From the IMG/VR virus record IMGVR_UViG_3300046003_007336, positions 62,001 through 126,000 of that record: 64,000 bases of DNA. One strand, written 5' to 3'. The DNA comes from a virus. Positions 5,389 through 56,496 of this stretch are shown piece by piece (the first letter of the stretch is position 1; the number at the start of each line of letters is the position of its first letter). The notes under the pieces are model-generated. The model was not told the origin of the DNA. It saw nothing but the letters and a program-made list of their open reading frames with translations, and searched no databases. The translations under genes and the position numbers were made by a program.

Positions 5389-5415
5389 TTTCCATGAAGG
5401 CTTTCCGGTAAGCTC

Positions 5416-12079: not shown

Positions 12080-12086
12080 CTAAATA
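12080..12086 (+). promoter_or_regulatory. CTAAATA late-type box before tRNA-fMet
   Basis: CTAAATA ends six bases before the first base of the mature initiator tRNA. If it works as a late promoter, the transcript would begin at or within a base of the tRNA 5' end. Confidence 0.5.
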
Positions 12087-14107: not shown

Positions 14108-14108
14108 C

Positions 14109-14138
14109 TTGACAGTTTCCGGCCAAGGTGATTAAATA
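14109..14138 (+). promoter_or_regulatory. tmRNA promoter
   Basis: TTGACA 14109-14114, 17 bases, TTAAAT 14132-14137, overlapping an ATTAAATA late-type box 14131-14138. Transcription should start near 14144. Confidence 0.65.
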
Positions 14139-14143
14139 ACTGC

Positions 14144-14567: not shown

Positions 14568-14570
14568 CTT
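14546..14570 (+). terminator. tmRNA terminator
   Basis: Eight-bp stem GGGGAGAC/GTCTCCCC (14546-14565) with a TTCG tetraloop, followed by ACCTTTG. The T run is short. Confidence 0.75.
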
Positions 14571-14635
14571 TGTTTCGGTTGACCGTTTCGAAATCTCCGA
14601 CTAAACCGGTCTACGAAATAATCCGAGAAAAGCCC

Positions 14636-16205: not shown

Positions 16206-16212
16206 ATAAATA
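16205..16212 (+). promoter_or_regulatory. Late promoter box AATAAATA
   Basis: AATAAATA just after the PP-loop gene stop, 25 bases before ATG 16237; GGAG lies in the leader. Confidence 0.6.
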
Positions 16213-18102: not shown

Positions 18103-18421
18103 CTGTCCTCCTGGGCTGGGCCGACCTGGGCTAGAACGGTACATCCTCCGTGGTGAATTCACCACCATCTATATCCGAATCAGAGACGTATGGCTGCCGC
18201 ACGGATGGGTACGAAATAAACTCTGTCGAGCCGACTGGATGATGCGGATGTGGGGTGACCGTCATCGCGACGAGAAACAATGCACCTGTCCAGTGGGAAC
18301 CACGGCCTTTATGTTCGAAAGCCCTTCGGATGCCATGGAGTTCTTCATCCGCTTCGGCGCATATACGGTTTCTCCAAATTCGACGAAAAAACATATTGAC
18401 CAAACGTCGGAAGATAAATAA
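18074..18421 (+). CDS. C-terminal-module protein, 115 aa
   Basis: Start placed at GTG 18074, preceded by GAGG at seven bases and overlapping the previous gene by 29 bases. It ends with TAFMFESPSDAMEFFIRFG plus a short tail, again the recurrent module. The middle holds two cysteines (EKQCTCPVG) that could bind a metal. The last codons contain the GATAAATA box of the tRNA-Leu cluster. Confidence 0.6.
   Translation: MSSSNSVFADCPPGLGRPGLERYILRGEFTTIYIRIRDVWLPHGWVRNKLCRADWMMRMWGDRHRDEKQCTCPVGTTAFMFESPSDAMEFFIRFGAYTVSPNSTKKHIDQTSEDK
18396..18420 (+). promoter_or_regulatory. Promoter region of the tRNA-Leu cluster
   Basis: TTGACC 18396-18401 and a GATAAATA late-type box 18413-18420, both inside the end of the preceding gene. 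Confidence 0.5.
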
Positions 18422-21135: not shown

Positions 21136-21166
21136 TATTTATGGCACCCTACTCGCGGATTGTCAA
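21136..21166 (-). promoter_or_regulatory. Combined sigma70/late leaderless promoter
   Basis: On the minus strand TTGACA (21161-21166), 17 bases, CATAAATA (21136-21143), six bases, ATG 21129. It carries both a -35 box and a late-type box. Confidence 0.7.
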
Positions 21167-21743: not shown

Positions 21744-21780
21744 TTGAGTAATGGACCCGGACTCGCTATGTTGGGTTCAT
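21744..21780 (+). promoter_or_regulatory. Leaderless sigma70-type promoter of the polymerase gene
   Basis: TTGAGT 21744-21749, 17 bases, TATGTT 21767-21772, eight bases to ATG 21781. Confidence 0.6.
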
Positions 21781-26213: not shown

Positions 26214-26410
26214 CCGAGGCCTCCGATGGCCGCGAATATTTTTTGACGAATCTCGGTCAGGGACTCGGCGACATGGATGTCTTCCGGCATGTAGTGACCC
26301 ATGCAAAGGGGGCGCAGAATGGTGTTCTGCCCATGCTCAACCCGATACAATATTTGGTCCATGTTGACGTCGATCTTGCGACCGTCCATCCGGGTAAGAA
26401 GAACATTCAT
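26210..26410 (-). CDS. FlbD-like small protein, 66 aa
   Basis: ATG 26410 overlaps the IleRS stop (ATGA). The sequence MNVLLTRMDGRKIDVNMDQI, followed by VEHGQNTIL and a last helix, follows the pattern of FlbD-type small proteins (TRLnGk, N-x-D-x-I, T-x-I). Length also fits. In bacteria FlbD-type proteins are found in flagellar operons; the phage role is unknown and the match may be only to the fold. Confidence 0.6.
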   Translation of the reverse strand: MNVLLTRMDGRKIDVNMDQILYRVEHGQNTILRPLCMGHYMPEDIHVAESLTEIRQKIFAAIGGLG

Positions 26411-29151
26411 GCCATGATCTCGTGCTGGGTTTTCCATTCCCGAACCGCGTCTGCATCGCGGAGGCTCAGGTCGGGGTACTCGGGGTCTTCGCCGACCTCG
26501 GTGAGGATTCGCCAGGACCGAGCGCATTTCTTGCCCGGCGCCTTGGATACGCAGATGCCCAACCGGGCCCCGTTCGAGAGGTGGCCGACATAGGCGGATG
26601 GCGGAGGGGCTTCGGCCAGCACCACGACCTTGCTGACGCGGAACACGTCGGCGGCCTGCACGCCGTTGAAGAGCGCAGCAGTCGTGGGGTCCAGATAGAG
26701 GACCAACTCGGCCTCCAGGTTGGACTTGATCTCGTCGCGCTCATCTTCCAGCGCGGCGTGCGAGATCGTCAGGACTTCCTTGATGAAGCCCCAGCGAACG
26801 ATTTCTTCGGGATGGTCGCCCCACGCCTTCGGGTCATTCAGGAGATGGAGATCGACCGGATGCCCGACGCTGTTGATGGCCTCGTGCGTGGTGAACGGCA
26901 CGATGGGGGTCAGCCACGTCAGAAGATGACGGAAGACCTCGTTGAGGACGTAGCGGTAGCCACGACGACGAACCGCCTTGGGGGAATCGCAGTAGAGGCA
27001 GTCCTTGCGGATGTCGAAATAGAACGCCGAGAGTTCGACCGAGCAGAACTCGATCACGGTTCTGGCAACCTCCGAGAAGTTGTAGGTCCGATAGGCCTCG
27101 GTGACGTCGTGGTTGATCGCGTTGAGGCGGCCGAGAACGAATTTCTCCAGCGGCTCCAGTTCCATGAAGGTCGGAGCTTCATCGTCCGTGTAGCCTTCGA
27201 GGGCGCCGATCAGATACCGCAGGGTGTTGCGGAGCTTCCGATAGGTCTCCTCGGTGGACTTGAAGATCGTCTTGCTGGCCTTGACGTCTTGGGTGAAGTC
27301 ACAGGTAGCGGCCCACAGGCGCAGAACGTCGGTGCCGTGCTCGTTGACGACATCACTGGGCGGGATGACGTTGCCTTCGGACTTCGCCATCTTGCGTCCA
27401 TTGGCGTCGAGGATGAAGCCATGGGTCAAGAACGCCGTGGAGGGGAGGTCTGGGCCCGTGTCAGTCATCGCCGCCACCAGCAGACTGGTCTGGAACCAGC
27501 CCCGGTGTTGATCACTGCCTTCGAGGACGAGATCAGCGGCGCGGTCGAGGATGCGGTGCGTGCAACCGCTGTCGAACCAGACGTCGAGGACGTCCATGAC
27601 CTTCTCGTATTCATTCGGGTCGAGATCAGTGCCGGTGAAGAACGTCTCGCTGGATTCCGACCACCATGCGTCACCGCCTCCAGCGAGGAAGGCCTGATAG
27701 GTGTTGTCGAGCACGGTCGGGTGCAGGCAGGGCAGGCCGGTTGCCGTGTGGACGAACAGCCCCATGGGGGTGCCCCAGACACGCTGGCGACTGATCAGCC
27801 AGTCAGGCCGGGTGGTCAGCATGGATTGCAGACGGGTGCGCCCGGCTTCCGGGTAGAAGGCCACGTCCTTGAGACTGTCGGCGACATCCTTCTTGGCCGC
27901 ATCCACGGCGATGAACCACTGGTCGGTCGCGCGTTCGATGACGAGCGCGCCGGAACGCCACGAGTGATTGAAGGGCCAGGGCTGAACGAGCTTGTCATTC
28001 AGGCATCCGGCCTCGCCGAGTTTCTCGATGATGGCGTCATTGGCCGGGCCGAAGTTCTTGCCGCGCGTGACCGCCAGTCCGCCAAAGACCGGCACCTCGT
28101 CGTAGTAGACGCCCTTGTCGTTGATGGTCTCGGGCAGTTCGGTGAGACCGTTCGCCTGACAGACCTTGTAGTCGTCCCCGCCATGGCCGGGCGCAAGGTG
28201 GACGAAGCCGGTGCCGACTTCGTTCTTCACGTAGGCGGCGTTGAACAGCGGAACGTCGAAGTCATAACCGTGGCCACGCAGCGGGTGCGCGCAGACGAGT
28301 TCGCTCGGGTCCACAGACCTGATCTTGCGGAAGCGGTCCTGCCGCGACCACTCGTTGTCGGCCATGATGACTTTCTGCCCGACCCAGTTGCGGTCAGTGT
28401 AGAGCCCGTACTGGAATTGGGAGTTGAACGCGATGGCGCGGTTGCCCGGAAGGCTCCACGGCGTCGTGGTCCAGATCAGAACCTGGGCGCCGACGAGATC
28501 GGTCTCGCCGCTGATAACCGGGAAGCCCACCCAGATAGTCGGGCACTGGACATCGACGGAGACGACCTCGGCCTCGGCGAGCGCGGTGTGTTCGACCGGC
28601 GACCACATGACGGGCTTCTTGCCCCGATAGACGAACCCATCTTCGGCGAGTTCGGAGAAGGCCTTGAAGATGTTGGCCTCCATCTCGTGACTCATCGTCA
28701 CGTAGGGGTTCGACCAATCGGCCAGGACGCCGAGCTTCTCGAACTGCTCGGCCTGTTCCTCAACCCAATGCTGGGCGAATGCGCGGCAGCGGGCGCGGAA
28801 CTCGACGACCGGGATGTCATCCTTGCTCAGCTTTTCTTTCTCACGCATCTCGCGCTCGACCGCCCATTCGATGGGGAGGCCGTGGCAATCCCAGCCGGGT
28901 CGGAACTGAACCGTCTTGCCCAACGCGGTTTGCGAGCGGCAAACGACGTCCTTGAGGATTTTGTTCAGGGCGTGCCCGAGGTGGAGATCGCCGTTCGCAT
29001 ACGGGGGGCCATCGTGGAGGATGAAATCCGCGTCGCGGTCGTCGCGGCGTTCGTCGTCAATCACCGCTAGGAGATCAGACTCGTTGGGACGGCCCCGCAT
29101 CTGGAACGCAGCTTTGGGGAGGAAAACGGTTTGGCGATAATCTGTCGTCAT
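26407..29151 (-). CDS. ileS: Isoleucyl-tRNA synthetase
   Basis: 914 residues, close to the length of bacterial IleRS. Class I signatures HLGH (57-60) and KMAKS (about 585, for KMSKS). The editing domain is intact: TTTPWSLPGN and GTGFVHLAPGHGGDDY. GWDCHGLPIEW also matches. The C-terminal end reads KKCARSWRILTEVG, where one zinc-ligand Cys of the usual CxxC is Ser and the second CxxC is absent, so the zinc knuckle is lost. It charges tRNA-Ile with isoleucine. Probably leaderless; first of three coupled genes. aaRS genes are rare in phages. No tRNA-Ile gene lies in the window. Confidence 0.95.
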   Translation of the reverse strand: MTTDYRQTVFLPKAAFQMRGRPNESDLLAVIDDERRDDRDADFILHDGPPYANGDLHLGHALNKILKDVVCRSQTALGKTVQFRPGWDCHGLPIEWAVEREMREKEKLSKDDIPVVEFRARCRAFAQHWVEEQAEQFEKLGVLADWSNPYVTMSHEMEANIFKAFSELAEDGFVYRGKKPVMWSPVEHTALAEAEVVSVDVQCPTIWVGFPVISGETDLVGAQVLIWTTTPWSLPGNRAIAFNSQFQYGLYTDRNWVGQKVIMADNEWSRQDRFRKIRSVDPSELVCAHPLRGHGYDFDVPLFNAAYVKNEVGTGFVHLAPGHGGDDYKVCQANGLTELPETINDKGVYYDEVPVFGGLAVTRGKNFGPANDAIIEKLGEAGCLNDKLVQPWPFNHSWRSGALVIERATDQWFIAVDAAKKDVADSLKDVAFYPEAGRTRLQSMLTTRPDWLISRQRVWGTPMGLFVHTATGLPCLHPTVLDNTYQAFLAGGGDAWWSESSETFFTGTDLDPNEYEKVMDVLDVWFDSGCTHRILDRAADLVLEGSDQHRGWFQTSLLVAAMTDTGPDLPSTAFLTHGFILDANGRKMAKSEGNVIPPSDVVNEHGTDVLRLWAATCDFTQDVKASKTIFKSTEETYRKLRNTLRYLIGALEGYTDDEAPTFMELEPLEKFVLGRLNAINHDVTEAYRTYNFSEVARTVIEFCSVELSAFYFDIRKDCLYCDSPKAVRRRGYRYVLNEVFRHLLTWLTPIVPFTTHEAINSVGHPVDLHLLNDPKAWGDHPEEIVRWGFIKEVLTISHAALEDERDEIKSNLEAELVLYLDPTTAALFNGVQAADVFRVSKVVVLAEAPPPSAYVGHLSNGARLGICVSKAPGKKCARSWRILTEVGEDPEYPDLSLRDADAVREWKTQHEIMA

Positions 29152-29391: not shown

Positions 29392-29556
29392 ATGAAGCTA
29401 GTCCTGGATGCCGAAGAAGTTTCGGCCATCGTCGTTGCCGCCCTCGCCGAAAAGCTTGGCGTCAAACCCACTGAAGTCAAAATCGTCCCCATGGGTGACG
29501 ATGATGCCTTCGCCCTGCGAGACATCGCCAAGCACTTCGTCGTCGAACTCGGCTAA
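29392..29556 (+). CDS. Small protein, 54 aa
   Basis: ATG 29392 has GGAG seven bases upstream. The product MKLVLDAEEVSAIVVAALAE then KLGVKPTEVKIVPMGDDDAF is a compact helix-strand unit ending in a helix. A CTAAATA late box overlaps its stop codon. Function unknown. Confidence 0.65.
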   Translation: MKLVLDAEEVSAIVVAALAEKLGVKPTEVKIVPMGDDDAFALRDIAKHFVVELG

Positions 29557-29559
29557 ATA
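29553..29559 (+). promoter_or_regulatory. Late promoter box CTAAATA
   Basis: Overlaps the stop of the preceding gene, 25 bases before ATG 29585. Confidence 0.6.
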
Positions 29560-33359: not shown

Positions 33360-33863
33360 ATGGCTTACCACCAGCCCGTCTGCTATGTTTTGATCGGCCC
33401 TCCGGGCAGCGGAAAGTCCACGTGGCTTGCCGCGCATCTCGCTGCCGCGACGGTGCCGACCGAGATCATCGGGACTGACTACATCATCGACACCATCGCG
33501 AAGAAGCTCAAGGCCACCTACACGGACGTATTCCGGGCCTGGGACGGCCCCGCGATCAAGCTCGAAATGCAGAACCGTTTCGAAGCCGCAGTGAAGAACA
33601 AGCACGACATCGTCATCGACCGCACCAACACGACCGCCAAGGTGCGCCGGGGTTTCTTGAGCCGCCTGCCCAAGAAGTCCCACTACCGGAAAGTCGCCGT
33701 CGTGTTCGACACGCCGGTTGACGTCTTGTATGCTCGACTGGAAGCTCGTGAGATCGAGACCGGCAAACATATTCCGCGCAGTGTGGTAGACCAGTTTATT
33801 GCTGGACTCGAACTCCCGCAGCCGCAGGAGTTCGACCAAGTCATCACCGTGACGGCTCGCTAA
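33360..33863 (+). CDS. P-loop kinase, polynucleotide-kinase-like
   Basis: 167 residues with Walker A GPPGSGKST (13-21), a middle motif IVIDRTNTTAKVRRGFL typical of Pnk/AAA_33 family kinases, and KVAVVFDTPVDVLYARLEAR as the lid region. It resembles the kinase domain of T4 Pnk (5' phosphorylation of RNA or DNA ends); the phosphatase domain is absent. With the RNA-ligase-type OB protein it hints at RNA end repair (inference). Confidence 0.75.
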   Translation: MAYHQPVCYVLIGPPGSGKSTWLAAHLAAATVPTEIIGTDYIIDTIAKKLKATYTDVFRAWDGPAIKLEMQNRFEAAVKNKHDIVIDRTNTTAKVRRGFLSRLPKKSHYRKVAVVFDTPVDVLYARLEAREIETGKHIPRSVVDQFIAGLELPQPQEFDQVITVTAR

Positions 33864-33866
33864 ATA
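33860..33866 (+). promoter_or_regulatory. Late leaderless promoter box CTAAATA
   Basis: CTAAATA overlaps the stop of the kinase gene and lies five bases before ATG 33872, which places the T4-type start at the ATG itself. Confidence 0.65.
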
Positions 33867-33871
33867 TCTCC

Positions 33872-34252
33872 ATGTATCCGATCACCATCATGGAACCGCC
33901 CGAGGATGACACAATGGTCAACTCCGGCAGTCTAGTCGCTATCCCTTTCTCGGTAGAAGAGGGAACGCAACTCCGCTGTATTATCGTCCACACCGCACCC
34001 ACACAGGACCACAGTCTTCGTTGCTGGATTAGCAAGGTGGCCGGAGATGCTCAGGTCAACTCGCAATCCCATCGATCTTACTGGCATCCGAACCGGACCA
34101 ACACTGAGTTCGTTGTCATCCACGACGAAGAGACTATCCCGGACCCGGTGCCCGATATGCCCCGTCCGTTGCCGCAGGGGGATTATTTCGTAAACATTCT
34201 CAACCTCGGAAATACGCCAAACCGGTTCTCCTTTTTGTTGACGGAAAACTGA
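33872..34252 (+). CDS. Small beta-rich protein, 126 aa, late leaderless
   Basis: MYPITIMEPPEDDTMVNSGS starts directly after a late box with no ribosome site. Strands such as RCIIVHTAPTQDHSLRCWIS and a Pro-rich loop (EETIPDPVPDMPRPLPQGDY) suggest a beta-sandwich, possibly a virion decoration or head-associated protein (inference from late promoter). Confidence 0.65.
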   Translation: MYPITIMEPPEDDTMVNSGSLVAIPFSVEEGTQLRCIIVHTAPTQDHSLRCWISKVAGDAQVNSQSHRSYWHPNRTNTEFVVIHDEETIPDPVPDMPRPLPQGDYFVNILNLGNTPNRFSFLLTEN

Positions 34253-38056: not shown

Positions 38057-38084
38057 CCTAGAGGGCTCGGGGTCTGAAAGTCTA
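38057..38084 (-). promoter_or_regulatory. Leaderless promoter with TAGAC-type -35
   Basis: Minus strand TAGACT 38079-38084, 16 bases, TCTAGG 38057-38062, seven bases to ATG 38049. The same TAGAC/CTAGG pair occurs at 58362-58390. Confidence 0.5.
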
Positions 38085-38558
38085 TTTTTTCGTAGACGGC
38101 TTTTTCGATTCTTCGAACCGGGCTCGCTTGATCGCCCCGGTGTTGACGAAGTGGCGAATCTGGTCATCGCCCTTCAGGGAGTTCCAGGTGATCGCGGTGA
38201 GGTCTTCGTCGATGAGGTCCATGCGGATGCGATTGATGCCATGGAAATCCTCGTAGGCGATGCGGACGGCCCGGCGCATCATCGTGGGGTCCTGGCAGGA
38301 TAGATACATGGTGGTTTTCTGGTCCTCAAAGCCACCACGGACGTAGCCTTGGTCGAAGGCGAGCTTGTAGTTCCGCTCGTAGTCATACCCGCGAACGATC
38401 TTGTCTTGCGGGATGTTCATCATGTCCGCGTTGTCTTCCAGGAAATCGCAGTGATCTTCGTGGAAGAGGTAGAACTGATTGTTGTTGGTATCGAACCAGA
38501 ATTTGTTTCCGCTGCCGTGCACGGCTTCCATGAGGAAGGTAATGTAGGGGCTGTCCAT
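38082..38558 (-). CDS. Unknown protein, 158 aa, late leaderless
   Basis: Start set at ATG 38558, four bases after CATAAATA (38563-38570), rather than an upstream ATG at 38606 that would lie before the promoter. Alpha/beta protein (MDSPYITFLMEAVHGSGNKF, FYLFHEDHCDFLEDNADMM) with a basic tail. Divergent from the gene at 38605. Function unknown. Confidence 0.65.
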   Translation of the reverse strand: MDSPYITFLMEAVHGSGNKFWFDTNNNQFYLFHEDHCDFLEDNADMMNIPQDKIVRGYDYERNYKLAFDQGYVRGGFEDQKTTMYLSCQDPTMMRRAVRIAYEDFHGINRIRMDLIDEDLTAITWNSLKGDDQIRHFVNTGAIKRARFEESKKPSTKK

Positions 38559-38562: not shown

Positions 38563-38604
38563 TATTTATGTTGAATGCAGATTGGAGTTGCGGTATCGCA
38601 AGAC
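38563..38604. promoter_or_regulatory. Divergent leaderless promoters
   Basis: Minus: CATAAATA 38563-38570 before ATG 38558. Plus: TTGAAT 38571-38576, 17 bases, TATCGC 38594-38599, five bases to ATG 38605. Confidence 0.5.
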
Positions 38605-40898: not shown

Positions 40899-41325
40899 CC
40901 GGGAAGATCGCGTCGAGCTTTTGCTCCCACGCGCCGGGGAAGCCACGCACCATCGTCTTGCCGTTCGCCCCCATGGTGGCGAGAAGTTTCAAGCACTCCA
41001 TGCCCTGGTCGAGACGCAGAACGTCGTCGGGCATGATGGGCGGCGCGAAGTGGATGATGCCGTTGCGATAGCTGCCGCCCCAACCCAGCCATCCTCTGAT
41101 GTGGCTGTCGAAGGCATGGTTGGAGCCAGTGGCGGCGTAATATTCCGCAGCATGAGAGCCCGCACCGCTGCCGCCGTCCACGCTGCCGATGACGAATTTC
41201 TTCGTCCGGGGAGAGAACATGAAGCGACGGTTCGATACTTCAGGCAGGGAGAACCGGCGTTGAACGCTGGCCTCGTCTGGCAAGCTGGTCTCAACCAGGG
41301 GCTTGCAGAATTCGAGAACGATCAT
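40891..41325 (-). CDS. Unknown protein, 144 aa
   Basis: ATG 41325 overlaps the stop of the upstream gene (ATGA). Beta-rich N-terminal half (SNRRFMFSPRTKKFVIGSVD) with many Gly, helical end (LDQGMECLKLLATMGANGKT). Last gene of the minus-strand operon starting at 41867. Function unknown. Confidence 0.65.
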   Translation of the reverse strand: MIVLEFCKPLVETSLPDEASVQRRFSLPEVSNRRFMFSPRTKKFVIGSVDGGSGAGSHAAEYYAATGSNHAFDSHIRGWLGWGGSYRNGIIHFAPPIMPDDVLRLDQGMECLKLLATMGANGKTMVRGFPGAWEQKLDAIFPAT

Positions 41326-41867
41326 ACAAATGAATCCTCTCGGGCTTTCTTGATCTCGGCAGCGATTTTGCCGGACTGGAAGGGGAGGACTTTCATCACG
41401 CGCCGGAGATGCTTGCAGCAGACGCCTTGCAGGTTGGGATTTCGAATGGTCGGGAAGCGGTCCTCGGGGATGATGGCGGCCTCCTTCTGAGTCAGGAGAT
41501 ATTGATAGCCCCAGAACTTGTAGGACGGGCACGGGCAGTGGAGGCGCAGGTTGCCTGACCAGATCAGAAGACGAGCAGAATCCACGGGGTTGTAGGTGAT
41601 GTCGCCGACGACATCGTCCCATTCCGAGAACTGCACGTAGGTCTCCCAGCCGTTGTATTTGTTCGGCACGAAAAACTTGAAAATGTTTTGCTCTCGCTCG
41701 ACGTACTTGACGTGCTTGATTAGCGGGGCCCAGTCGCGGTGCGGGAGATTGTGGACGATCTCACCCGGCACGTTGTTGTTCGTGATATCGCGGATGAGGG
41801 ACTTGTAGGTCTCCTCGTCGAGCTTGATCGGAACGTCATCGTGGAAATAAGGGTGAAGGCGATGCAT
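41322..41867 (-). CDS. Cys-rich SWIM-like phage protein, 181 aa, late leaderless
   Basis: ATG 41867 is four bases after CTAAATA on the minus strand. The protein has RLHCPCPSYKFWGYQYLLTQ and later GVCCKHLRRVM, a CxC...CCKH arrangement like SWIM-type zinc fingers and seen in T4-like virion genes. Late promoter and tail-gene neighbours suggest a structural or assembly role. Confidence 0.65.
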   Translation of the reverse strand: MHRLHPYFHDDVPIKLDEETYKSLIRDITNNNVPGEIVHNLPHRDWAPLIKHVKYVEREQNIFKFFVPNKYNGWETYVQFSEWDDVVGDITYNPVDSARLLIWSGNLRLHCPCPSYKFWGYQYLLTQKEAAIIPEDRFPTIRNPNLQGVCCKHLRRVMKVLPFQSGKIAAEIKKAREDSFV

Positions 41868-41871
41868 GACG

Positions 41872-41878
41872 TATTTAG
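41872..41878 (-). promoter_or_regulatory. Late leaderless promoter box CTAAATA
   Basis: Minus-strand CTAAATA, four bases before ATG 41867; it overlaps the end of the upstream gene. Confidence 0.65.
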
Positions 41879-42363
41879 CGGCCGACGACGCGCCAGGACC
41901 CACCAGAGAACATGATTTCGATCAGGGCGTATTCGCCATCAATAATGTATTCGGCGACCCCGTCGATGAGATCGGCACTGACAAGATGGATGGGGGTCAA
42001 GGCCGCATTGCTGCTTTCGTCCTTGATCACGATAACCTTGCCATCTTCGCCTTCGGGAAGATTCAGGACCGTCTGTTCGTCGAGTCCGTTCGGCGCCGTG
42101 ATGAAAACGACGTGGGCCCCACCCGCAATCGTGCTCTCTGAGCCGCCTGGAAGGCTCTGGGAGACCCTTCTCTTGTTTATGGGGTGCCAGTCCCCATTCG
42201 ATTTCAAGAACAGTGACGGGGGCTCTGCGCGGCAAACATAGAGGTCTCCTTCTCCCCATTGCCCCGACGTCGGAATCGTGTCGCCATGGCGAATGGACGG
42301 TCCCTTCTTCCCAATGGAGAAGTAGTCCTTGACCGTCCCTGTGATGCCGTAGTGAACCGTCAC
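41875..42363 (-). CDS. Tail/fibre-associated protein, 162 aa (paralogue pair, copy 2)
   Basis: GTG 42363 overlaps the stop of the 243-residue gene. Its N-terminus (GITGTVKDYFSIGKKGPSIR) is paralogous to that of the upstream protein (NISGTLADRFKIGKGGPTIR), and both share DGD/EGDLYV and a WHPI or WISL stretch. Probably a small virion appendage protein. Ends in beta strands (GGSWRVVGR). Confidence 0.7.
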   Translation of the reverse strand: MTVHYGITGTVKDYFSIGKKGPSIRHGDTIPTSGQWGEGDLYVCRAEPPSLFLKSNGDWHPINKRRVSQSLPGGSESTIAGGAHVVFITAPNGLDEQTVLNLPEGEDGKVIVIKDESSNAALTPIHLVSADLIDGVAEYIIDGEYALIEIMFSGGSWRVVGR

Positions 42364-43091
42364 TTCGTAATCCTGACCCTATAGGCGTATCCGTCCGGGA
42401 TGGGGTCGTCGGCGGAGAGGACGATAGACGTCGCGTTCGGACGCGAGACCGCGATCTCGACGTCGCGGAAATCACCAAAGTTCTCTCGAACCTCGACCAT
42501 GACGTCGCGGGTATCGAACGGATGGTTGACGGTGAACTGGGTGGCGACGTCATTCCCCGTGATGGTAGCCCAGAAAGGAACAGGCATGAGGTCTCCTTCG
42601 GTCCTTCTGGTGACATACCAGTTGCCATCACGGAAGGAGAGCGTGACGGAACCGTAGTTGGAGGCGAGGCTGAGGCCGATTTCGTTCTCGATCAGGTCGC
42701 CGGATGCGGAGAGGATTTCGACCGGGTAGGTGGCCGCGCTGCCGAGTTCATCCTTGATCGTGATCTCCATGGCGTTCACGCCTGTGGGGAGCGTAATGGT
42801 GCTGGGCGACCCGGAGCCGGAAATTATGGCCACGTAGGTGGTCTCTGGCTCTATGGCGTCATCTACCCCTCTCGCGATCTCTTGTCGCGCGTAGGGCCCG
42901 TCGCTGAGAAGGGATATCCAGGAACCGTCTTTGAAAAAGATATCCGAGGTCGCCGCCTTGACCAGGAAGAGATCGCCGTCGCCGCCTATGAGGTTTGATG
43001 GGGCCTCGTCGCCCTGCCGGATGGTGGGACCGCCCTTTCCGATTTTGAAACGGTCGGCCAAAGTCCCGGAGATGTTGCTCTTAATATCCAT
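42360..43091 (-). CDS. Tail/fibre-associated protein, 243 aa (paralogue pair, copy 1)
   Basis: Start set at ATG 43091, five bases after GTAAATA. The first 60 residues match the next gene; the middle (SGSGSPSTITLPTGVNAMEI) and end (DVMVEVRENFGDFRDVEIAV) are beta-rich, as in fibre or baseplate spike proteins. Late promoter and position next to the fibre genes support a virion role. Confidence 0.7.
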   Translation of the reverse strand: MDIKSNISGTLADRFKIGKGGPTIRQGDEAPSNLIGGDGDLFLVKAATSDIFFKDGSWISLLSDGPYARQEIARGVDDAIEPETTYVAIISGSGSPSTITLPTGVNAMEITIKDELGSAATYPVEILSASGDLIENEIGLSLASNYGSVTLSFRDGNWYVTRRTEGDLMPVPFWATITGNDVATQFTVNHPFDTRDVMVEVRENFGDFRDVEIAVSRPNATSIVLSADDPIPDGYAYRVRITK

Positions 43092-43096
43092 GATCG

Positions 43097-43125
43097 TATT
43101 TACCCAAGCCACATACGACTAAATA
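43097..43125. promoter_or_regulatory. Divergent late promoter boxes
   Basis: Minus GTAAATA (43097-43103) five bases before ATG 43091; plus CTAAATA (43119-43125) before ATG 43160. Confidence 0.65.
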
Positions 43126-43159
43126 CTAAAAACCATCTTTTCGAAGTGAGATCACATTC

Positions 43160-43708
43160 ATGCAACGTTATGCAATACTAGATTCTACGAACAATGTCAT
43201 GTCAGTGACTGTTTGGGACGGTAACTCTGTGTGGCAAACGCCCGTGGGAACGTCTGCGTTGATGATTCCAGAAAACTCACCCGTTAATGTGGGATGGAGA
43301 TACATCCCCACCTCGAACTCTTTTCTTCGGCCAGGACCCACCGACCCTTCCATGAGCATCCGCCGCATGGAAAAAATCGACTTCATGCGTCTGTTCACCA
43401 CCATGGAGATGGTCCGATACAAGATGCTCCGTATGGCCATCGACAACCTCACCCCGGCCGATTACACCGCTGCCATGCAGGGTGATCAGCAGAAAATGAT
43501 GCTCGTGCAGGCCGACGTCATGTTTGACCGCTTCGATCTCGCGTCCAGTCTGGAAATGGACCACGCGGAAACCATCATGGGCGTTCAGATGATGGCCATG
43601 GCTGGTATTTTTGGAAACGTTGCGTCTGGAGAAGTCACACAAGAGTACGTCGATCAACGCGTCGAACGCATCCTGGCCGGATTGGGCTCGGAAGAAATTC
43701 CGGCTTAA
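43160..43708 (+). CDS. Tail-region protein, 182 aa
   Basis: Plus-strand gene between minus-strand tail genes. Begins MQRYAILDSTNNVMSVTVWD with a small beta domain of the kind found at the start of tail fibre assembly proteins, followed by a Met-rich helical half (RLFTTMEMVRYKMLRMAIDN, ETIMGVQMMAMAGIFGN). Late box upstream. It may be a fibre or tail chaperone (inference). Confidence 0.65.
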   Translation: MQRYAILDSTNNVMSVTVWDGNSVWQTPVGTSALMIPENSPVNVGWRYIPTSNSFLRPGPTDPSMSIRRMEKIDFMRLFTTMEMVRYKMLRMAIDNLTPADYTAAMQGDQQKMMLVQADVMFDRFDLASSLEMDHAETIMGVQMMAMAGIFGNVASGEVTQEYVDQRVERILAGLGSEEIPA

Positions 43709-44328
43709 GGTGCCTCGTCGGGCCAATCCACGGCAGCCAGTATGGTCAGGGTGTCCAAAACCGTATTTGAACTAGAGGCATTCTTTATAGATATAGTTGC
43801 TCCACCGCCACCCGACCCGGCCGAAATTCCAGACCCCGCTACGTCCGCACTGATTGTGAGAGTATCGTTATTGGACACTGAAATGCTCATAGAACGAGAA
43901 ATTGCGGTCGAACTTCCGTTAGTGCTTCTCGTCCAAGTAATAGACCCCGCTTCGACCGCGTTTACTAAAGCGTAAACCGTCAAGGTTGTTGCCCCGTTTG
44001 TCGTGTTGACGTTGGCGTCGGTAGTGTCGATGGTGAGACTGATCGCGGTAGTGATACCAGTTATGGTCACAGTATTGCTGTCTTGAACCGCATACGTCGT
44101 TCCCGATACACTAACGTTGTTGATATTAAATGCCGTGGGGATGTAATCGGCCGCAGTTGTGCTATAGAACTGGCTCAACGAAATAGCCCCCGTGGTCGGA
44201 ACTCCGGTGTTGTTGGAAGTCGTATAAGACCCACCACGATAGTATTCAGAAAGCGAAATTGGGTTCGAGCCCCCAAACTCAGTTTGTAGGTTACTGAAAC
44301 TGATCGGCCCGGAACCCGTGATGGCCAT
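43705..44328 (-). CDS. Virion surface/tail protein, 207 aa
   Basis: Starts MAITGSGPISFSNLQTEFGG followed by NPISLSEYYRGG, a pattern frequent at the N-terminus of phage tail and structural proteins. The rest is Ser/Thr-rich beta sandwich (VSVSGTTYAVQDSNTVTITG). Its start overlaps the TAA of the upstream gene. Convergent with the gene at 43160. Confidence 0.65.
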   Translation of the reverse strand: MAITGSGPISFSNLQTEFGGSNPISLSEYYRGGSYTTSNNTGVPTTGAISLSQFYSTTAADYIPTAFNINNVSVSGTTYAVQDSNTVTITGITTAISLTIDTTDANVNTTNGATTLTVYALVNAVEAGSITWTRSTNGSSTAISRSMSISVSNNDTLTISADVAGSGISAGSGGGGATISIKNASSSNTVLDTLTILAAVDWPDEAP

Positions 44329-44669
44329 TAGAGACCAAACGCCTTGTTGAGGTTAACGGGTTTCTGCTGCATCTGGTATGCGGCTTCCATGCGGCTTTTT
44401 ACGCCGAGGGCTTGCTGCTCCAAGATGAGGTTGAAGGCTTCTTTATCGACCTTGCCGTTTTTGACCGGGACGTTGACGTTCTTGACGGCGTGTGGGTTCG
44501 GGTCATTATCGACCTCGCGCGTTTTCTTTACAGGCTCTTCGCCATCTTCGACGGTCTCCTCGTACTCCTCGGTGGTGATGAACTCGCCTGTGTAGTAGGG
44601 GTTCAAGAACTGCACCTGTACGGTGAGGCTTGCAGAATCTGCGCTGAGAATTTTGTGTTCAAGTTCCAT
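44328..44669 (-). CDS. Small phage structural protein, 113 aa, late leaderless
   Basis: ATG 44669 is five bases after CTAAATA. Strands SASLTVQVQFLNPYYTGEFI, an acidic loop (EETVEDGEEPVKKTREVDND) and a helical end. Followed by the 207-residue tail protein in the same operon. Virion role inferred from context. Confidence 0.65.
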   Translation of the reverse strand: MELEHKILSADSASLTVQVQFLNPYYTGEFITTEEYEETVEDGEEPVKKTREVDNDPNPHAVKNVNVPVKNGKVDKEAFNLILEQQALGVKSRMEAAYQMQQKPVNLNKAFGL

Positions 44670-44674
44670 GTAGT

Positions 44675-44681
44675 TATTTAG
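44675..44681 (-). promoter_or_regulatory. Late leaderless promoter box CTAAATA
   Basis: Five bases before ATG 44669 on the minus strand; it overlaps the first codons after the fibre gene's coiled-coil end. Confidence 0.7.
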
Positions 44682-47600
44682 ACTTTCTGTTCTAGCATCC
44701 CCAGGATGCGGTCGAGTTTGCTTTCCAGGTCAGCGATTTTGGCTTCCAGAGCAGCGTTCTTGGTCGTTAGTTCTTTGATGCCCGCTACCGCGAGGGGGAC
44801 GAGACGTTCGTATTTGACCGTCAGATACTTATCGTTGAACGGCGCGGGGCGAACCGCGTCGGGCATGATTTTCTGAATTTCCTGAGCGAGGAAACCGTGT
44901 TCATCTTCGTACTGGTAGGGGGTGAACCCGAGTTCATCGACTAGCTCTTTTCTCCAATCGAACACGTAACCACCGATCTGAGAAATCTTGCCCAGCGGGT
45001 CTTCGATCTCTCGGACGTTTTCTTTCAGGCGAGCATCCGAGGAATACGCCGTGATGTCGCCAGCCGCCGCCAGCGTGCCGCCCGAGGTCATGGTCAGAAT
45101 TGAAACGTCTAGATAGTTCCGCCACGCATAGTTGTCGGGGGAAGAGAAGAACGTGGTCGAGCCGGAAGAGAAATTGAAACGGTTGTAGCCATCGGTGGAT
45201 TTTTGCCACGCGCCGACCGGAATTCCGCCATTGAACCATAGAGGTTGCTGCGTTGTTCCATCGTACCACGTGAGATTGGTCGCGTTGACGTACAGGCCGA
45301 TGTTGGACGACCCACCACCATAAATCCTGGTAGCGGAACCGGTGCCACCCGCGTTTCCGTAGCCGATATACATGCCATCAGTAACAGCACCGGACGAGTT
45401 GCGGACGACACGTTGGTTCATGAAACCACTGCCATCGCGAACCGGGACAGTGCTTGCGGTATCGCTAGTGGTGCTGGAACTGTAGCCATCCAGGAGATCG
45501 GCGTCCAGACCTGAGCCCGCGCCGTCGTTTGTTGAATTCCAGATGGTCGCAACACCCCACATAAGAACGCCAGAGGCATTCATATGCAGGCGATTTACGT
45601 CTCGGCCAGACCAGTGGAACGCAATAGACGGGTCGTATGAACCAGAAGATTGGGCCACGCCAACCAGACCGACTTCTCGGATTTGCAAGCCAAAGTTGGT
45701 CCAGTCGTTGCCCGGAACGTCACTGCTAATGATCTGTGGTTTCGTGAACGTCGAGGCGGTGCCGAGCAGAGCAAACGATGTGGCGTGGTAACCATCCAGG
45801 AGGTCAGCGTCGAGGGTTGAACCCGAGCCGTCGTTACCGGCATGCCACGCCGTGTTGGCGTTGATGCGGACGGTGCCAGTGCCAGTAGTGGTGAGGTTGA
45901 TGTTTGAGTTTGTAACTTCGTTTGCTAGCGTTATGGTGCTACCGCTGTGTTGGATATATCCATTACGGCTGCTGTTTGCAGTATTATACCAGCTATAGTA
46001 AGCTGCATCGTTTGCGATACGGACACCTTCGCCACCGCCCAGCGCAACGGTCACACGAGACGAGAACGTCTTGCCCGCCATCGTTGTCGGCAGATAAGAA
46101 TCGCTCAGCGTACCGGCGTTGATATTCGTTGCGGAACGGTAGTAGGTTCCTTCCTGACCATCCAGGAGGTCGGCATCCAAGCCCGTGCCCGTGCCGTCAT
46201 TGCTGGAGTTCCAGTGATAGGCGGCAGCCCGAGTGACGTTGACCGTATCGAACGCAGTGGCGAAGGAAATTGCCCAGCCGCCATCCCATCCGCTAGTATA
46301 CCCGCTGTACCCCATGTTGAATTCGGTGATGAAGACTTGCGGATAGGCCCAGACTTGACCAACTTCGCCAATCCAGATACAGTTCTTCGTACCGTCATTG
46401 CCGAACCGGACGCTCTTCTTGACGGTCCCAGAATCCGTATATTGCTCAGCGGAGACGTTCGCCCAGGTTGCGCTGTAGGGATAGCCGGAGATGACGAACG
46501 TCTCGGCGGTTCCGGTTGAATAGTTGTAGACTTCAACCCGCATCCGCAACATTGCGTTCGAGTGCAAGTTGGGAAGCCTGATCTTGATCGCGCCGGTGAC
46601 AGAAGAAGTACCAGTTGTATATGCACCCCCACCTGGGCTAACGTATCGGCTTGAGTAGGTCGCCCCGGCCGGAATGCCATAATCAGCCAATCCGTTTGTG
46701 GATTTGATGATGTTGCTAGCGACAATCTCCCCGTTACCACGAACGGTGAGAAGAGCCGCCGATGACGAGTTTCTCAAAAGCATCGAGTAGTCGGATGAGT
46801 TTGTTCCGGCGTCAACCAAAACACCATAGCTCTGGCTTGATGTGGTTCCGCCTTTCACTACGGCAGCCCAATCAGCCGTTCCGGCAGTCTGAACCACTGT
46901 GAGTTTTGCAGAAGTAACGCCAGCCATTTGTGAAGCCGTATTGATAAGCACGGCGCCAGCAGCATCAACTCGCATTCGTTCCGTCATCGTAATGGCGGTG
47001 TCAACCGTCACTGCTTGAGCACTAGCGGTGAAGAAACGAATATCCCCAGCGACGTCGATGATCGACCTACCAAGCGTTCCGCTATACGAGGATACAAATC
47101 CTGTGGATGATGTAGATGTCTTAACGCCATATCCTAGTTGCAGACCGATGGACGAATACCCGACACCAACCAGAGCAACGCTTTCTGTGGCAGACTGCCT
47201 CTGCCCCATCATTACATAGCCGTTGCCACTACCCGCCAGGATTTGGGTGCCCGAAGTATTGACATACTGTTGGCCGGTGAACGTGTTGCCCCCCGTGGTG
47301 GCGTAGTAGGAACCCTGCTGACCGTCCAGGAGATCGGCGTCGAGCCCGGAGCCCGAACCATCGTTACCGGCATGCCAGATCGTGGACGAGTTGATGCGCA
47401 ATGCCCCACCGCCAGTCGTGTATAGCTCGATGTTTCCGGCCGACCGCTCATTGTAGATGTGGAAATGCGGAGAAGACGAGCCGCCATATCCGACGTATCC
47501 GCTTCTCGTAGATTGAGCGGCAGCATCGGAATAGTATGCCAGCCACGTCCCCGTAGCTGACCCGCTCTTCAACAACAAACCTTGAGCGGAGTTGGCCGCC

Positions 47601-50600
47601 GCCATGGTGGTGGTGCCGATGGTATCGCCGGATTTCAGAGCGAACGCCGACGCGTGGTTACCGTCCAGGAGATCGGCGTCGAGGCCGGAGCCCGAGCCAT
47701 CGTTGCCATTGTCCCATACAATTCTCCACGCCTGCCAAGAGTTCGAGTTTTTTCCTCGAAGGGCGATTTGACCAGTGCGGTAGTCGCCGAATATTTGGTG
47801 CTGCCATGTGCTGTCGTAAACCTGACTGTAGAGCGCACCATCGGTTTGGCCGAGAAGCGACATGCTACCGACATAGCTGATACCGTTCTTTGCCAGAGTG
47901 TCGGCAGCGACGCCGCCACCGGAGTTGGTATTGGAGAAATCACCGGCATGGACGACCTTGTTACCATTGACCTGGAGGGCAGTAGAGAGGTCGAAGTTGG
48001 CCGTCGTGGCTTGAACACCCGACCGAGAAATTATCAATGCGCTCTGGGACGAAGCCCAGGCATCATTGATGAGTAGAAGATGAAGTTGATCTCCGTTTTG
48101 GGCAAGGGCGGAATATCTATTGTTGGCCGTCCCATCAGAATCATACATCGAGTAATACGGGTAGGCTGAGTTTGACGCCACTCCACCCGTAAACGTGACG
48201 TTTCCTGAAATCGTGCCGCCCGCTGTCGGAGAGAAAGCGTCCGTGATTCCGTAACCGGCCAGCGTCGTCGGGTTGGTTCCCGCAGTCACAATACCCTGTG
48301 CGTTGACGGTCACGCTCCGATAGGTCGAGGCAGTGACGCCAGACGTCGGGAGGTCACCGTTCGCAATAGCAGAAGCCGACCACGTGTCCGTGCCGGTGCG
48401 ACGGACGAAGCCGGTCGTGGCGAGACCTTCGACCGCAGCGAGATCATTCGCGAGAACGAGAGTCGGGTTGCCCGACACACCATCGCCGTTCGAGACGGTG
48501 ATGCCCGCAGCGGGCGCGGTCAGCGTCCGTGAAGCATAGGTGCTCGCACCCGTGCGATGAATGGCCCCATTGGTCGCAAGGTTGTGCAGTGCCAGAGCCT
48601 GACCGGTGAGTTGGAAATCGATTCCCGACTTCGTGATGCCGGTCGAGGCCGTGAATGTGGCCGAGCCACTGAACTGCACCCAGGTGACTGCGGTGGTTTC
48701 GAGCGTTCCTCCGGCATTGACCGTACAGGTCCAGCCCGTGTCTCCTTGGGTCGTTCCTTCTTCGACAAACACATATGCGGATACGAGTTCAGCCCAGGTG
48801 CTCGCGTCAACAGCACGAGCCCAAGCTCCAGCGGCGCAAACATAGATGCCGTTCTGAAGAGTAGATGTTTGGTTCTTGACCAGAACACGATCATTCGCGA
48901 TGACGGCGACGCCATCGATTGTTTGCGTGCCCGACAGAGTGATGTTTGCCGTCGTGGCGACGTGGACGGCGGCCTTCGCGGATAGTCCTTGAATGGAGTT
49001 ATCGACGTATTGCTTGGTCGCGGCCTGGAGGGCACTGGACGGGTCGGACGCCAGGGTGACGCTTCCAGTAAAGGTTACAGCACCAGCGGAAGAAATCGTC
49101 ATCCGACGAGTGAGATTTGTATCAAATCCCAATGCAGCGGAAACGGCGGTTCGAACGACAAATTCCGAGTTTGTGTTGTCGTAGTAAATCGTTGATCTGG
49201 ATGAGTTGTTATTGTAGAAATCAAGGGAGGTATACTGCTCACCTCCGTTATCGACACGAATCGAGTTTGCGTTGCTTCCCTTCACATGGAACTTAGCACC
49301 AGGGGTCGCAATATTAACGCCAACATCACCAGCGTAAGTGATGCTCATTCGGGCATCGGCCAGCGTCGCGGCGGTGTTGTCAGCACCACCGTTGTTGAGG
49401 ATGTGAATCGTACCACGAGCCGCACCATCGCCGATTTGAGCTTGAACGATGGCACTCTTCTGGAATGCGCGGCTGGCCTCGGTGTAGCCGAGGCCGATAC
49501 CGGCAAAGTTCCCCGCCGTGATGTTGAGACCCTGGCTGCCGAACACGGCGAATTGCCCCGTCGTCAAATGGGTGTGCAGTTTAGCCACGGGGGCCGTCGT
49601 GCCAATGCCAACGCTGCCATCGGTCTTGACCCGGACCTTTTCTGACCCGTTAGCCCACAGAGCCAGATCGCTTGATGCTTGGCCGCCAATGAGAGCTAGG
49701 TTGGTATCCCAGGATATGATGCCGTTATTCGCCGATGCACCCCAACGCTGAACGCCGTCTCCAGTGATGGTGATACGGCTGTTCAGGTTTACAGTTGTGT
49801 CACTGCCGGTGCCGCCGTCCACGATGTGGAGCTTGGCTGACGGAGAGACGCCTATGCCGACGTTACCTCCAAAGAAGTTCCTTGCCGCCGTGTCCTCTTG
49901 ATAGAGCCCATACGCTAGGTTGGTCTGCGTACCACCCGTGACATCACCGATGTAAACGCCATAGGTATTCGTGATGATACCAGAGTTGAAAAGCAGGTCT
50001 ACTTTCGCTCCGTAAGCGTTGGTTATTACGCCCGCCGCGTTCAAGTTTTGTATCTCGAACTTCCCAGCGATAGCATTTGTGTTGGTCCCAGCCGTCGTAT
50101 GATAGACAAGGAACCGACCGCCATGCATATTGCTGACCGTCTTAGTGGTCGTTGCGCCGCCCTGGGCCGCGAAATACCCTCCTGTAAAGGTTCCGGTGTA
50201 GTTGAACGCACTGCCGTTCGGGGCAGCTACGAACGAGCCGCCGATAGCTGACTGCGAATTATTTGCCGTGAGTACGACGTTTCGCTGGAAATTCCCTCCG
50301 ACTACCGTGGCGGTAGGGTCAGTAGCGTTGGCGTTTGCCGTGAGAAGAATGTTCGCGTCTACCGCTGTTCCGCCGATGGCGACGTTCCCTGCGAGTTGGG
50401 TAGTCCCGGCGTTCCAAAGCCCGTACCGGTTGGTTATGGTCGTGTTGGTTCCGGCGGTTGCGGAACCTGCGATGTAAACGGTAGCTGCGTTTGTGACCGT
50501 TATGGCGTTTGTTGACGCGAGCGTCGTAGTCCCGAAAGAGTGCCCGGCGCGAGTCGCCACCGTTCCTGCCGCCGCTGTTGTGGTGTCGGTGTAGGTGCTG

Positions 50601-51763
50601 GCGTCTACCGCGAGGCCTAGTCCGGTAGTTGTCCAAGCGGCTGCGGACCTCGCTCCCGAGATGTTGAGCAAGGCTAGAGGCGTGGCTGTACCGATGCCGA
50701 CGTTACCGGTGTCCGTGAACCTAGCGACTTCGACGTTGTTCTTGACGGAGACGATTACATCAGCAGTGCGAGAAATATCGCCATCACCGGCTCGAAGATT
50801 GAGGTCTGAGCCGCCGATTGAATTGAAGTAGATCGAATAGCCCACACTTGACGAGTCGCCGATCTGAAGGGCAGCATACGGGAGGTTGACCGTTGACGCC
50901 GTGCTGGTCGGCAAGCTAAAGAGCGTGGTGGTATTGCTCATGAAGCGGAGACCACGGCCAGATGCAGCTTTCAGGACGCTAAAGCCCGAGCCGTCCGCGT
51001 GGGGCATTGTCACATAACCAAGCGTGTCAACGCCGAAGACTTGTTCTCGACCTACGTTTACCGCAAATTTCTGAGCGGGAGTTCCCCCGATACCGACGTC
51101 TCCGGTTGCGGTGATGCGCATGCGCTCCGCGCCGGTTCCGCTCGAAGAGGTTCGGAACGACAGCGCAGTGGAGCCACCGTTGGACCGCGCCGACATCGTG
51201 AAATCGCCACCAGAGGAGTCCATGGACAGAACGCCAGCGATGGTGGCTGGCTCGGCATAGGTTCCGCCAGTCGTGAATAGCACGTTGCCAGTGAAGGTCG
51301 GCGCCGCAGATGCTGATTTTGCGTCCAGTGCAGTCTGAAGTCCGGTAACGGTAGAGATGGCCTGAACGCCAGTGTGGTTGACCCGAGCCAGCAGAGTGGC
51401 GTCGGAGGAGTTGGCGGTCGCGCCGGTTGCGATGCCATTGAGCTTGGTCTTGTCAGCAGCCGAGAGGAAACCATCAACCGACGTGGTTGCCGCAGCGTGG
51501 ACGTGTGACGAGACCGAATACGACCCCGCCGCCTGTTTGCCGTCCAGCGCGGCCTGAAGACCAGTGACCGTTGATATCGCTTGCTCGCCAGTGTGGTTGG
51601 CGCGAGCCAGAAGAGTGGCGTTAGACGAGTTGGCGGTCGCGCCAGCCGCAATACCGTCGAGCTTCGTTTTGTCGGCCGCCGAAAGGAAACCGTCAGTCGA
51701 AGTGGTGGCGACGACCAGGGTGCTGGTTAGGCCAGTGACGTCGGTAATATTGATCTTCTGCAT
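44678..51763 (-). CDS. Giant tail fibre with S74 chaperone domain, 2361 aa
   Basis: ATG 51763 is five bases after CATAAATA. Made of short beta-repeat modules: TLLARANHTGEQAISTVTGL-type units at the N-terminus, then fibre segments, and at least five copies of a GLDADLLDG motif in the C-terminal half. The last 120 residues are a peptidase S74 intramolecular chaperone: SDARLKENV with the likely autocleavage Ser at 2242, GYVFDWRKE, HGFLAQEIQKI, and a trimeric coiled coil at the end. It should fold as a trimer, then cut off the chaperone. Host recognition is the expected role. Confidence 0.9.
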   Translation of the reverse strand: MQKINITDVTGLTSTLVVATTSTDGFLSAADKTKLDGIAAGATANSSNATLLARANHTGEQAISTVTGLQAALDGKQAAGSYSVSSHVHAAATTSVDGFLSAADKTKLNGIATGATANSSDATLLARVNHTGVQAISTVTGLQTALDAKSASAAPTFTGNVLFTTGGTYAEPATIAGVLSMDSSGGDFTMSARSNGGSTALSFRTSSSGTGAERMRITATGDVGIGGTPAQKFAVNVGREQVFGVDTLGYVTMPHADGSGFSVLKAASGRGLRFMSNTTTLFSLPTSTASTVNLPYAALQIGDSSSVGYSIYFNSIGGSDLNLRAGDGDISRTADVIVSVKNNVEVARFTDTGNVGIGTATPLALLNISGARSAAAWTTTGLGLAVDASTYTDTTTAAAGTVATRAGHSFGTTTLASTNAITVTNAATVYIAGSATAGTNTTITNRYGLWNAGTTQLAGNVAIGGTAVDANILLTANANATDPTATVVGGNFQRNVVLTANNSQSAIGGSFVAAPNGSAFNYTGTFTGGYFAAQGGATTTKTVSNMHGGRFLVYHTTAGTNTNAIAGKFEIQNLNAAGVITNAYGAKVDLLFNSGIITNTYGVYIGDVTGGTQTNLAYGLYQEDTAARNFFGGNVGIGVSPSAKLHIVDGGTGSDTTVNLNSRITITGDGVQRWGASANNGIISWDTNLALIGGQASSDLALWANGSEKVRVKTDGSVGIGTTAPVAKLHTHLTTGQFAVFGSQGLNITAGNFAGIGLGYTEASRAFQKSAIVQAQIGDGAARGTIHILNNGGADNTAATLADARMSITYAGDVGVNIATPGAKFHVKGSNANSIRVDNGGEQYTSLDFYNNNSSRSTIYYDNTNSEFVVRTAVSAALGFDTNLTRRMTISSAGAVTFTGSVTLASDPSSALQAATKQYVDNSIQGLSAKAAVHVATTANITLSGTQTIDGVAVIANDRVLVKNQTSTLQNGIYVCAAGAWARAVDASTWAELVSAYVFVEEGTTQGDTGWTCTVNAGGTLETTAVTWVQFSGSATFTASTGITKSGIDFQLTGQALALHNLATNGAIHRTGASTYASRTLTAPAAGITVSNGDGVSGNPTLVLANDLAAVEGLATTGFVRRTGTDTWSASAIANGDLPTSGVTASTYRSVTVNAQGIVTAGTNPTTLAGYGITDAFSPTAGGTISGNVTFTGGVASNSAYPYYSMYDSDGTANNRYSALAQNGDQLHLLLINDAWASSQSALIISRSGVQATTANFDLSTALQVNGNKVVHAGDFSNTNSGGGVAADTLAKNGISYVGSMSLLGQTDGALYSQVYDSTWQHQIFGDYRTGQIALRGKNSNSWQAWRIVWDNGNDGSGSGLDADLLDGNHASAFALKSGDTIGTTTMAAANSAQGLLLKSGSATGTWLAYYSDAAAQSTRSGYVGYGGSSSPHFHIYNERSAGNIELYTTGGGALRINSSTIWHAGNDGSGSGLDADLLDGQQGSYYATTGGNTFTGQQYVNTSGTQILAGSGNGYVMMGQRQSATESVALVGVGYSSIGLQLGYGVKTSTSSTGFVSSYSGTLGRSIIDVAGDIRFFTASAQAVTVDTAITMTERMRVDAAGAVLINTASQMAGVTSAKLTVVQTAGTADWAAVVKGGTTSSQSYGVLVDAGTNSSDYSMLLRNSSSAALLTVRGNGEIVASNIIKSTNGLADYGIPAGATYSSRYVSPGGGAYTTGTSSVTGAIKIRLPNLHSNAMLRMRVEVYNYSTGTAETFVISGYPYSATWANVSAEQYTDSGTVKKSVRFGNDGTKNCIWIGEVGQVWAYPQVFITEFNMGYSGYTSGWDGGWAISFATAFDTVNVTRAAAYHWNSSNDGTGTGLDADLLDGQEGTYYRSATNINAGTLSDSYLPTTMAGKTFSSRVTVALGGGEGVRIANDAAYYSWYNTANSSRNGYIQHSGSTITLANEVTNSNINLTTTGTGTVRINANTAWHAGNDGSGSTLDADLLDGYHATSFALLGTASTFTKPQIISSDVPGNDWTNFGLQIREVGLVGVAQSSGSYDPSIAFHWSGRDVNRLHMNASGVLMWGVATIWNSTNDGAGSGLDADLLDGYSSSTTSDTASTVPVRDGSGFMNQRVVRNSSGAVTDGMYIGYGNAGGTGSATRIYGGGSSNIGLYVNATNLTWYDGTTQQPLWFNGGIPVGAWQKSTDGYNRFNFSSGSTTFFSSPDNYAWRNYLDVSILTMTSGGTLAAAGDITAYSSDARLKENVREIEDPLGKISQIGGYVFDWRKELVDELGFTPYQYEDEHGFLAQEIQKIMPDAVRPAPFNDKYLTVKYERLVPLAVAGIKELTTKNAALEAKIADLESKLDRILGMLEQKV

Positions 51764-51768
51764 AGGAC

Positions 51769-51776
51769 TATTTATG
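51769..51776 (-). promoter_or_regulatory. Late leaderless promoter box CATAAATA
   Basis: Exactly five bases before ATG 51763, so T4 late geometry puts the transcription start on the A of ATG. Confidence 0.75.
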
Positions 51777-56488: not shown

Positions 56489-56496
56489 TATTTATT
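56489..56496 (-). promoter_or_regulatory. Late promoter box AATAAATA
   Basis: Minus-strand AATAAATA, 19 bases before ATG 56469; the leader contains AAGGGG. Confidence 0.6.

Follow-up and report, generated by a model that had tools for sequence, protein, structure and literature searches.

Late-promoter boxes beside start codons and a candidate leaderless class of late genes in a T4-type phage

Here, we describe the hexamer TAAATA and the genes it precedes in a stretch of phage DNA of 64,000 nucleotides (nt), hereafter the window, which spans positions 62001-126000 of a viral record of 198,512 base pairs (bp; IMG/VR record IMGVR_UViG_3300046003_007336, here named G000); the remainder of the record was also analysed. 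In the window, this hexamer stands directly before the start codons of several virion and other genes, and further upstream of others (Table 1). All seven box-ATG pairs named in a first-pass annotation of the sequence are present at the spacings given in the table, counted from the end of the box to the ATG. For the pair at 21129 the 6-nt spacing holds, but the gene is in doubt, as its open reading frame (ORF) of 105 amino acids (aa) was not called and may be spurious.

Table 1. TAAATA boxes and associated genes in the window
Feature	Position	Strand	Remarks
Late box TAAATA	41872..41877	-	4 nt before ATG 41867
181-aa tail protein (phrog_1722), predicted leaderless	41322..41867	-	G004 and G001 orthologs: box at 5 nt
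Late box TAAATA	43097..43102	-	5 nt before ATG 43091
243-aa protein, predicted leaderless	42360..43091	-	Weak gp9/10-like N-terminal match (E = 0.0086, below Pfam cut-off); head-decoration PHROG match
Late box TAAATA	44675..44680	-	5 nt before ATG 44669; box TAA doubles as stop codon of the 2361-aa gene
113-aa protein, predicted leaderless	44328..44669	-	No family assigned
Late box TAAATA	51769..51774	-	5 nt before ATG 51763
2361-aa protein, predicted leaderless	44678..51763	-	Tail-fibre and head-decoration PHROG matches
Late box TAAATA	33861..33866	+	5 nt before ATG 33872 (126-aa ORF 33872-34252); box TAA is the upstream ORF's stop codon
Late box TAAATA	38563..38568	-	4 nt before ATG 38558 (158-aa ORF 38082-38558)
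Box, doubtful member	21136..21141	-	6 nt before ATG 21129; ORF not called as gene
Leadered-class box	56489..56494	-	19 nt before ATG 56469 (1558-aa gene)
Leadered-class box	29554..29559	+	25 nt before ATG 29585 (232-aa gene)
Leadered-class box	16207..16212	+	24 nt before ATG 16237 (525-aa gene); GGAG upstream of ATG

The genome carries the markers of a T4-superfamily myovirus. Profiles identified a portal (phrog_213), major capsid (phrog_138), prohead protease, tail sheath, gp46/gp47-type nuclease, and ligase, and the closest named relatives by portal identity include the jumbo phages Phosso (51%) and Atu_ph07 (49%). A permuted transfer-messenger RNA (tmRNA) at window 14105-14601 (+), with the tag ANDNVDMGSYALAA, matches both the tmRNA_permuted and alpha_tmRNA models of Rfam; because it is of the alphaproteobacterial type, the host is likely an alphaproteobacterium. 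A similar permuted tmRNA is found in G004, one of the relatives (G001-G005) used for comparison, which are IMG/VR records and possibly fragments.

Gene calling was ab initio and took no account of Shine-Dalgarno sites. We use “class I” for genes with TAAATA exactly 4-5 nt before the start, and “leadered” for those with the box at least 17 nt upstream. The hexamer itself is in excess: there are 58 sites in G000 against 21.7 expected from overlapping 5-mer and 4-mer counts, and 22 in the window against 4.8 expected from dinucleotide shuffles, a number reached in 0 of 100 shuffles. The distance from box to start in G000 is bimodal, with 6 genes at 4 nt, 11 at 5 nt, none from 6 to 16 nt (P = 3e-5 against uniform spacing), and the others at 17-56 nt; leadered genes account for about half of the start-proximal boxes. 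When the 45 nt upstream of each gene were shuffled with dinucleotides preserved, an average of 0.14 genes per shuffle, and at most 2 in any of 200 shuffles, had the box at 4-5 nt, against the 17 called genes observed, so that the earlier suggestion of a spacing above random rates, now counted genome-wide, is borne out and the placement of the box 4-5 nt before gene starts is confirmed. The 14 other hexamers of four A and two T together yield 3 cases at these distances in G000, all of them AAATAT or ATAAAT in a register overlapping the box. The controls behind these p-values were picked after the pattern was known; a scan of all hexamers at offsets 0-49, which is independent of that choice, returns TAAATA at 5 nt as the most significant start-linked motif in G000, G004, and G003, and ranks Shine-Dalgarno words first in T4, Atu_ph07, and SCTP-2.

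Late transcription in T4 involves gp55, gp33, and gp45 and the box TATAAATA, which lies at -13 to -6, with the start site 6 nt after the box. G000 encodes a gp55 late-sigma homologue of 286 aa (phrog_12791, E = 3e-71; phrog_234, E = 8e-20) that also aligns with T4 gp55, and homologues are present in all four relatives studied. Among leadered genes, position 6 after the box is an A in 19 of 29 cases in T4, 55 of 81 in Atu_ph07, and 33 of 42 in G003; in four pooled GC-richer genomes it is an A in 51 of 101, the highest of the positions counted there. The tail-sheath gene is led by TAAATA in G000 (34 nt), in T4 (28 nt), and also in G004, G003, and S-PM2. With the encoded gp55 homologue, the excess of the hexamer, and the A at position 6 as in T4, the boxes behave as T4-type late promoters, as the first-pass annotation had proposed; we infer late timing from the box together with gene function. 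The gp55 homologue of G003 (locus L098; 108185-110008, -) contains an insertion of about 330 residues that starts at Cys and ends before Thr, and is intein-like.

If initiation is taken at position 6 after the box, a 5-nt spacing would put +1 on the A of the ATG. The usual initiator is a pyrimidine at -1 followed by a purine at +1, and across five genomes the base before the ATG in the 5-nt class is a pyrimidine in 53 of 58 genes (p = 4e-13 against other ATG genes). Class I boxes of G000 and its relatives present two initiator registers, mostly a pyrimidine before the ATG at 5 nt and mostly a G at 4 nt. A Shine-Dalgarno site was found in 1 of 17 class I genes of G000, compared with 12 of 17 leadered boxed genes, and in 1 of 47 and 0 of 15 class I genes of G004 and G003, respectively. 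In addition, 80 of 81 class I genes (five genomes) start with ATG, compared with 1264 of 1413 others (p = 0.003). Folding of the RNA does not distinguish the two classes: over their first 40 nt, class I mRNAs fold weakly, at -3.6 kcal/mol, against -6.0 for all genes from the ATG, but leadered mRNAs taken from their predicted start fold as weakly (-3.7). A phage-encoded IF3 was considered as a helper and rejected, since no IF3 C-domain was found in any of five genomes.

The class I genes of G000 with profile matches encode a baseplate hub/tail lysozyme, an endolysin, a virion structural protein, a tail protein, a weakly gp9/10-like protein, the 2361-aa protein that matches tail-fibre profiles, a DNA methyltransferase-like protein, and a small protein with homing endonucleases among its matches; the class also includes proteins without an assigned family. 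The proposal that the major virion proteins are made from leaderless mRNAs had to be abandoned for the major capsid and the tail sheath: the sheath gene combines a Shine-Dalgarno site with a box 34 nt upstream, and that of the major capsid lacks an adjoining box and is preceded by a Shine-Dalgarno leader. With both of these leadered, the leaderless set would therefore be a subset of virion, lysis, and other genes that excludes major capsid and sheath.

The class recurs in uncultured relatives. At 4-5 nt there are 47 genes in G004 (607,744 bp), 15 in G003, 8 in G005, and 2 in G001. Among named phages the counts are 0 in T4, 0 in S-PM2, 2 in Atu_ph07, 3 in PA5oct, and 7, all at 5 nt, in Salicola phage SCTP-2, of which 400 kilobases (kb) were examined; the class is not strong in any cultured phage sampled. 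A class common to all T4-type phages is accordingly rejected, with T4 and S-PM2 having none and Atu_ph07 and PA5oct almost none. Nor is it supported as a trait of alphaproteobacterial phages as such, given that phiM12 and Cr30 are without TAAATA-N5-ATG and Atu_ph07 has only 2 genes.

Orthologs often keep their class, and others switch. The box stands 4 nt before the gene of a 351-aa virion structural protein in G000 and 5 nt before it in G004; at 4, 5, and 5 nt before the 181-aa tail protein in three phages; and at 4 nt before that of a 304-aa protein in both phages compared. For a 251-aa protein, it lies at 23 nt in G000 and at 5 nt in G004, the copy of which matches a head-tail adaptor profile, and for an 81-aa protein it lies at 22 and 25 nt in two phages versus 5 and 7 nt in two others. 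The N-termini of orthologs align in class-keeping and class-switching pairs alike, and because they do so across switching pairs, the start codons used here are supported. We regard class switching as the strongest evolutionary sign that two distinct modes of initiation are being maintained. The portal tree does not settle the order of the five relatives, and gain or loss of the class is consequently not dated. In the portals themselves, the ORF of G003 runs to 1500 aa compared with about 600 in relatives, and at loci L031, L033, L036, and L037 matches to the portal query extended no further than about residue 260-350; G003 and these loci may have an intein at a common position.

Taken together, we consider it very probable that G000 and some of its relatives have a T4-type gp55 late regulon with two modes of initiation, one of which yields leaderless late mRNAs from boxes 4-5 nt before the ATG. 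TAAATA would act as a -10-like element, read by the phage gp55-family sigma on the host RNA polymerase. Where the box lies at least 17 nt upstream, transcription would produce a leader of about 12 nt or longer, usually with a Shine-Dalgarno site. Where it lies 4-5 nt before the ATG, the transcript would start at the A of the AUG or no more than one base from it, and ribosomes would begin at this 5'-terminal AUG without Shine-Dalgarno pairing. Leaders of 1-11 nt, to which the gap at 6-16 nt would correspond, would be too short to hold a Shine-Dalgarno site and would be avoided.

A further step, which we put forward tentatively and hold slightly less likely to be right than wrong, is that in a lineage of large T4-superfamily phages box spacing alone splits the gp55 regulon into two translational classes that share one promoter motif. 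Leaderless mRNAs would be used for virion, lysis, and accessory proteins that are mostly low in copy number, and the most abundant virion proteins would be made from leadered mRNAs with Shine-Dalgarno sites; because genes switch class, spacing could set dosage or timing without a change of promoter.

It is important to remember that the whole case is built on sequence and that the gene starts are predicted, and this is one of several points that weigh against two initiation modes with a leaderless class. In the 4-nt class of the five genomes, the base before the ATG is G in 22 of 31 genes; this G allows for a start either at the A (position 5) or at the G itself, and so for a one-base leader. 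The earlier claim of a start on the A of the ATG or its neighbour is supported for the 5-nt class, where the A is the expected start, and for the 4-nt class is to be read as a start at the A or at the base before it. The 6-16 nt gap does not hold strictly in every relative: in G004, 15 boxes lie at 6-14 nt. Similarly, the gp33 co-activator and gp45 sliding clamp were not recognised in G000 with T4-derived profiles or with Pfam PF02916 and PF09116, two gp45 models that also miss Atu_ph07. An iterated gp45 profile was discarded after it drifted to G003 matches that included very large ORFs.

Other explanations of the same boxes were weighed. Translation of class I genes might take place mainly on longer polycistronic mRNAs and be coupled to that of the gene before them, the adjoining late promoter being minor. 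The TAA of the box is indeed the stop codon of a called upstream gene in 4 of 17 class I genes in G000 and 7 of 47 in G004, but the majority of class I boxes overlap no called stop, and coupling leaves both the ATA half of the hexamer and the initiator bases unexplained; we consider it improbable, if the least so of the alternatives. That the gene starts are predictions also leaves room for a true start at a downstream in-frame codon with its own leader and Shine-Dalgarno site, the box being a real promoter and the ATG beside it unused. Orthologs, leadered ones included, nevertheless align from residue 1 with the ATG used, and within 72 nt an internal start that has a Shine-Dalgarno word is present in 1 of 17, 0 of 47, and 0 of 15 class I genes, not above other genes, which makes this quite unlikely.

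Slightly less likely again is that the box beside the ATG is an AU-rich element for ribosome or S1 binding and not a promoter. Such a role would suit its location, about where a Shine-Dalgarno site would sit, and the lack of that site in class I genes. It would not account for the missing excess of other AT-only hexamers of equal composition, for the same hexamer at least 17 nt upstream of other late genes (including the tail sheath, in T4 as well), or for the encoded gp55 late sigma. As the original sites were picked by eye, chance arising from base composition or multiple looking also had to be considered; it is ruled out by the shuffles, the permuted hexamers, and the all-hexamer scan, to which the independent relatives can be added, and we give it a negligible probability.

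Some other features of the genome deserve mention. A late box at window 12081-12086 (+) lies 6 nt before a tRNA-Met gene (12093), and boxes at 3635-3640 and 18415-18420 lie upstream of two tRNA clusters; these box-led tRNAs may be transcribed late. At window 5383-5415 (+), a box at 5 nt is followed by a five-codon ORF, ATGAAGGCTTTCCGGTAA, that ends 4 nt before a gene start at 5416 and is possibly a leaderless upstream ORF. Matches to T4-type DNA polymerase are split over two genes about 43 kb apart, at window 21751-23034 (+) and G000:38964-40865 (+). Window 26407-29151 (-) encodes a 914-aa class I aminoacyl-tRNA synthetase, the best matches of which are isoleucyl-tRNA synthetases at about 36% identity.

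If the two modes of initiation exist as proposed, there are practical consequences. Gene finders that rely on Shine-Dalgarno sites may misplace starts in these phages. In addition, the natural pairs, in which the same gene is leadered in one phage and leaderless in a relative, would provide a genome-wide set for asking what purpose leaderless translation serves.

Leaderless mRNAs are known from other Thermus phages besides the lytic phiYS40. For phiYS40 itself, IF2 was reported to go up and IF3 down in the host (PMC3594737); phiYS40 makes leaderless mRNAs, which in G000 are predicted, but that paper does not present it as a phage with a T4-type gp55 system. Leaderless genes of which the -10 element adjoins the ORF are frequent in Deinococcus-Thermus and Actinobacteria (PMC3160421, PMC12340547). 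These bacteria resemble G000 in that a -10-type element precedes the start codon by a few bases and a Shine-Dalgarno site is missing; they differ in that their element, TANNNT, is read by the host housekeeping sigma, whereas that of G000 is TAAATA, presumably read by the phage late sigma. In Caulobacter, an alphaproteobacterium, one leaderless start site is on record (PMC4287350). We found no T4-type phage for which leaderless late mRNAs, or a leaderless class in the late regulon, have been described in the literature searched, the coverage of which mostly excludes subscription journals.

Among the cultured jumbo T4-superfamily phages compared, Atu_ph07, PA5oct, and SCTP-2 are like G000 in having many starts 15-40 nt after TAAATA, but unlike it in their few genes at 4-5 nt in larger or more AT-rich genomes; Phosso, unlike G000, has no excess of the pattern. 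T4 and G000 share a gp55 homologue, the TAAATA core, a favoured A at position 6, and a box-led tail sheath, and differ in the recognition of gp33 and gp45 described above. They differ also in the class itself, as the first-pass annotation had anticipated: no T4 gene lies 4-6 nt from a box, and nearly all start-proximal T4 boxes are at least 9 nt from the start. T4 late transcription is a textbook case of promoter and ribosome site as separate signals; in G000, the distance of a single short element appears enough to determine whether or not an mRNA carries a ribosome site.

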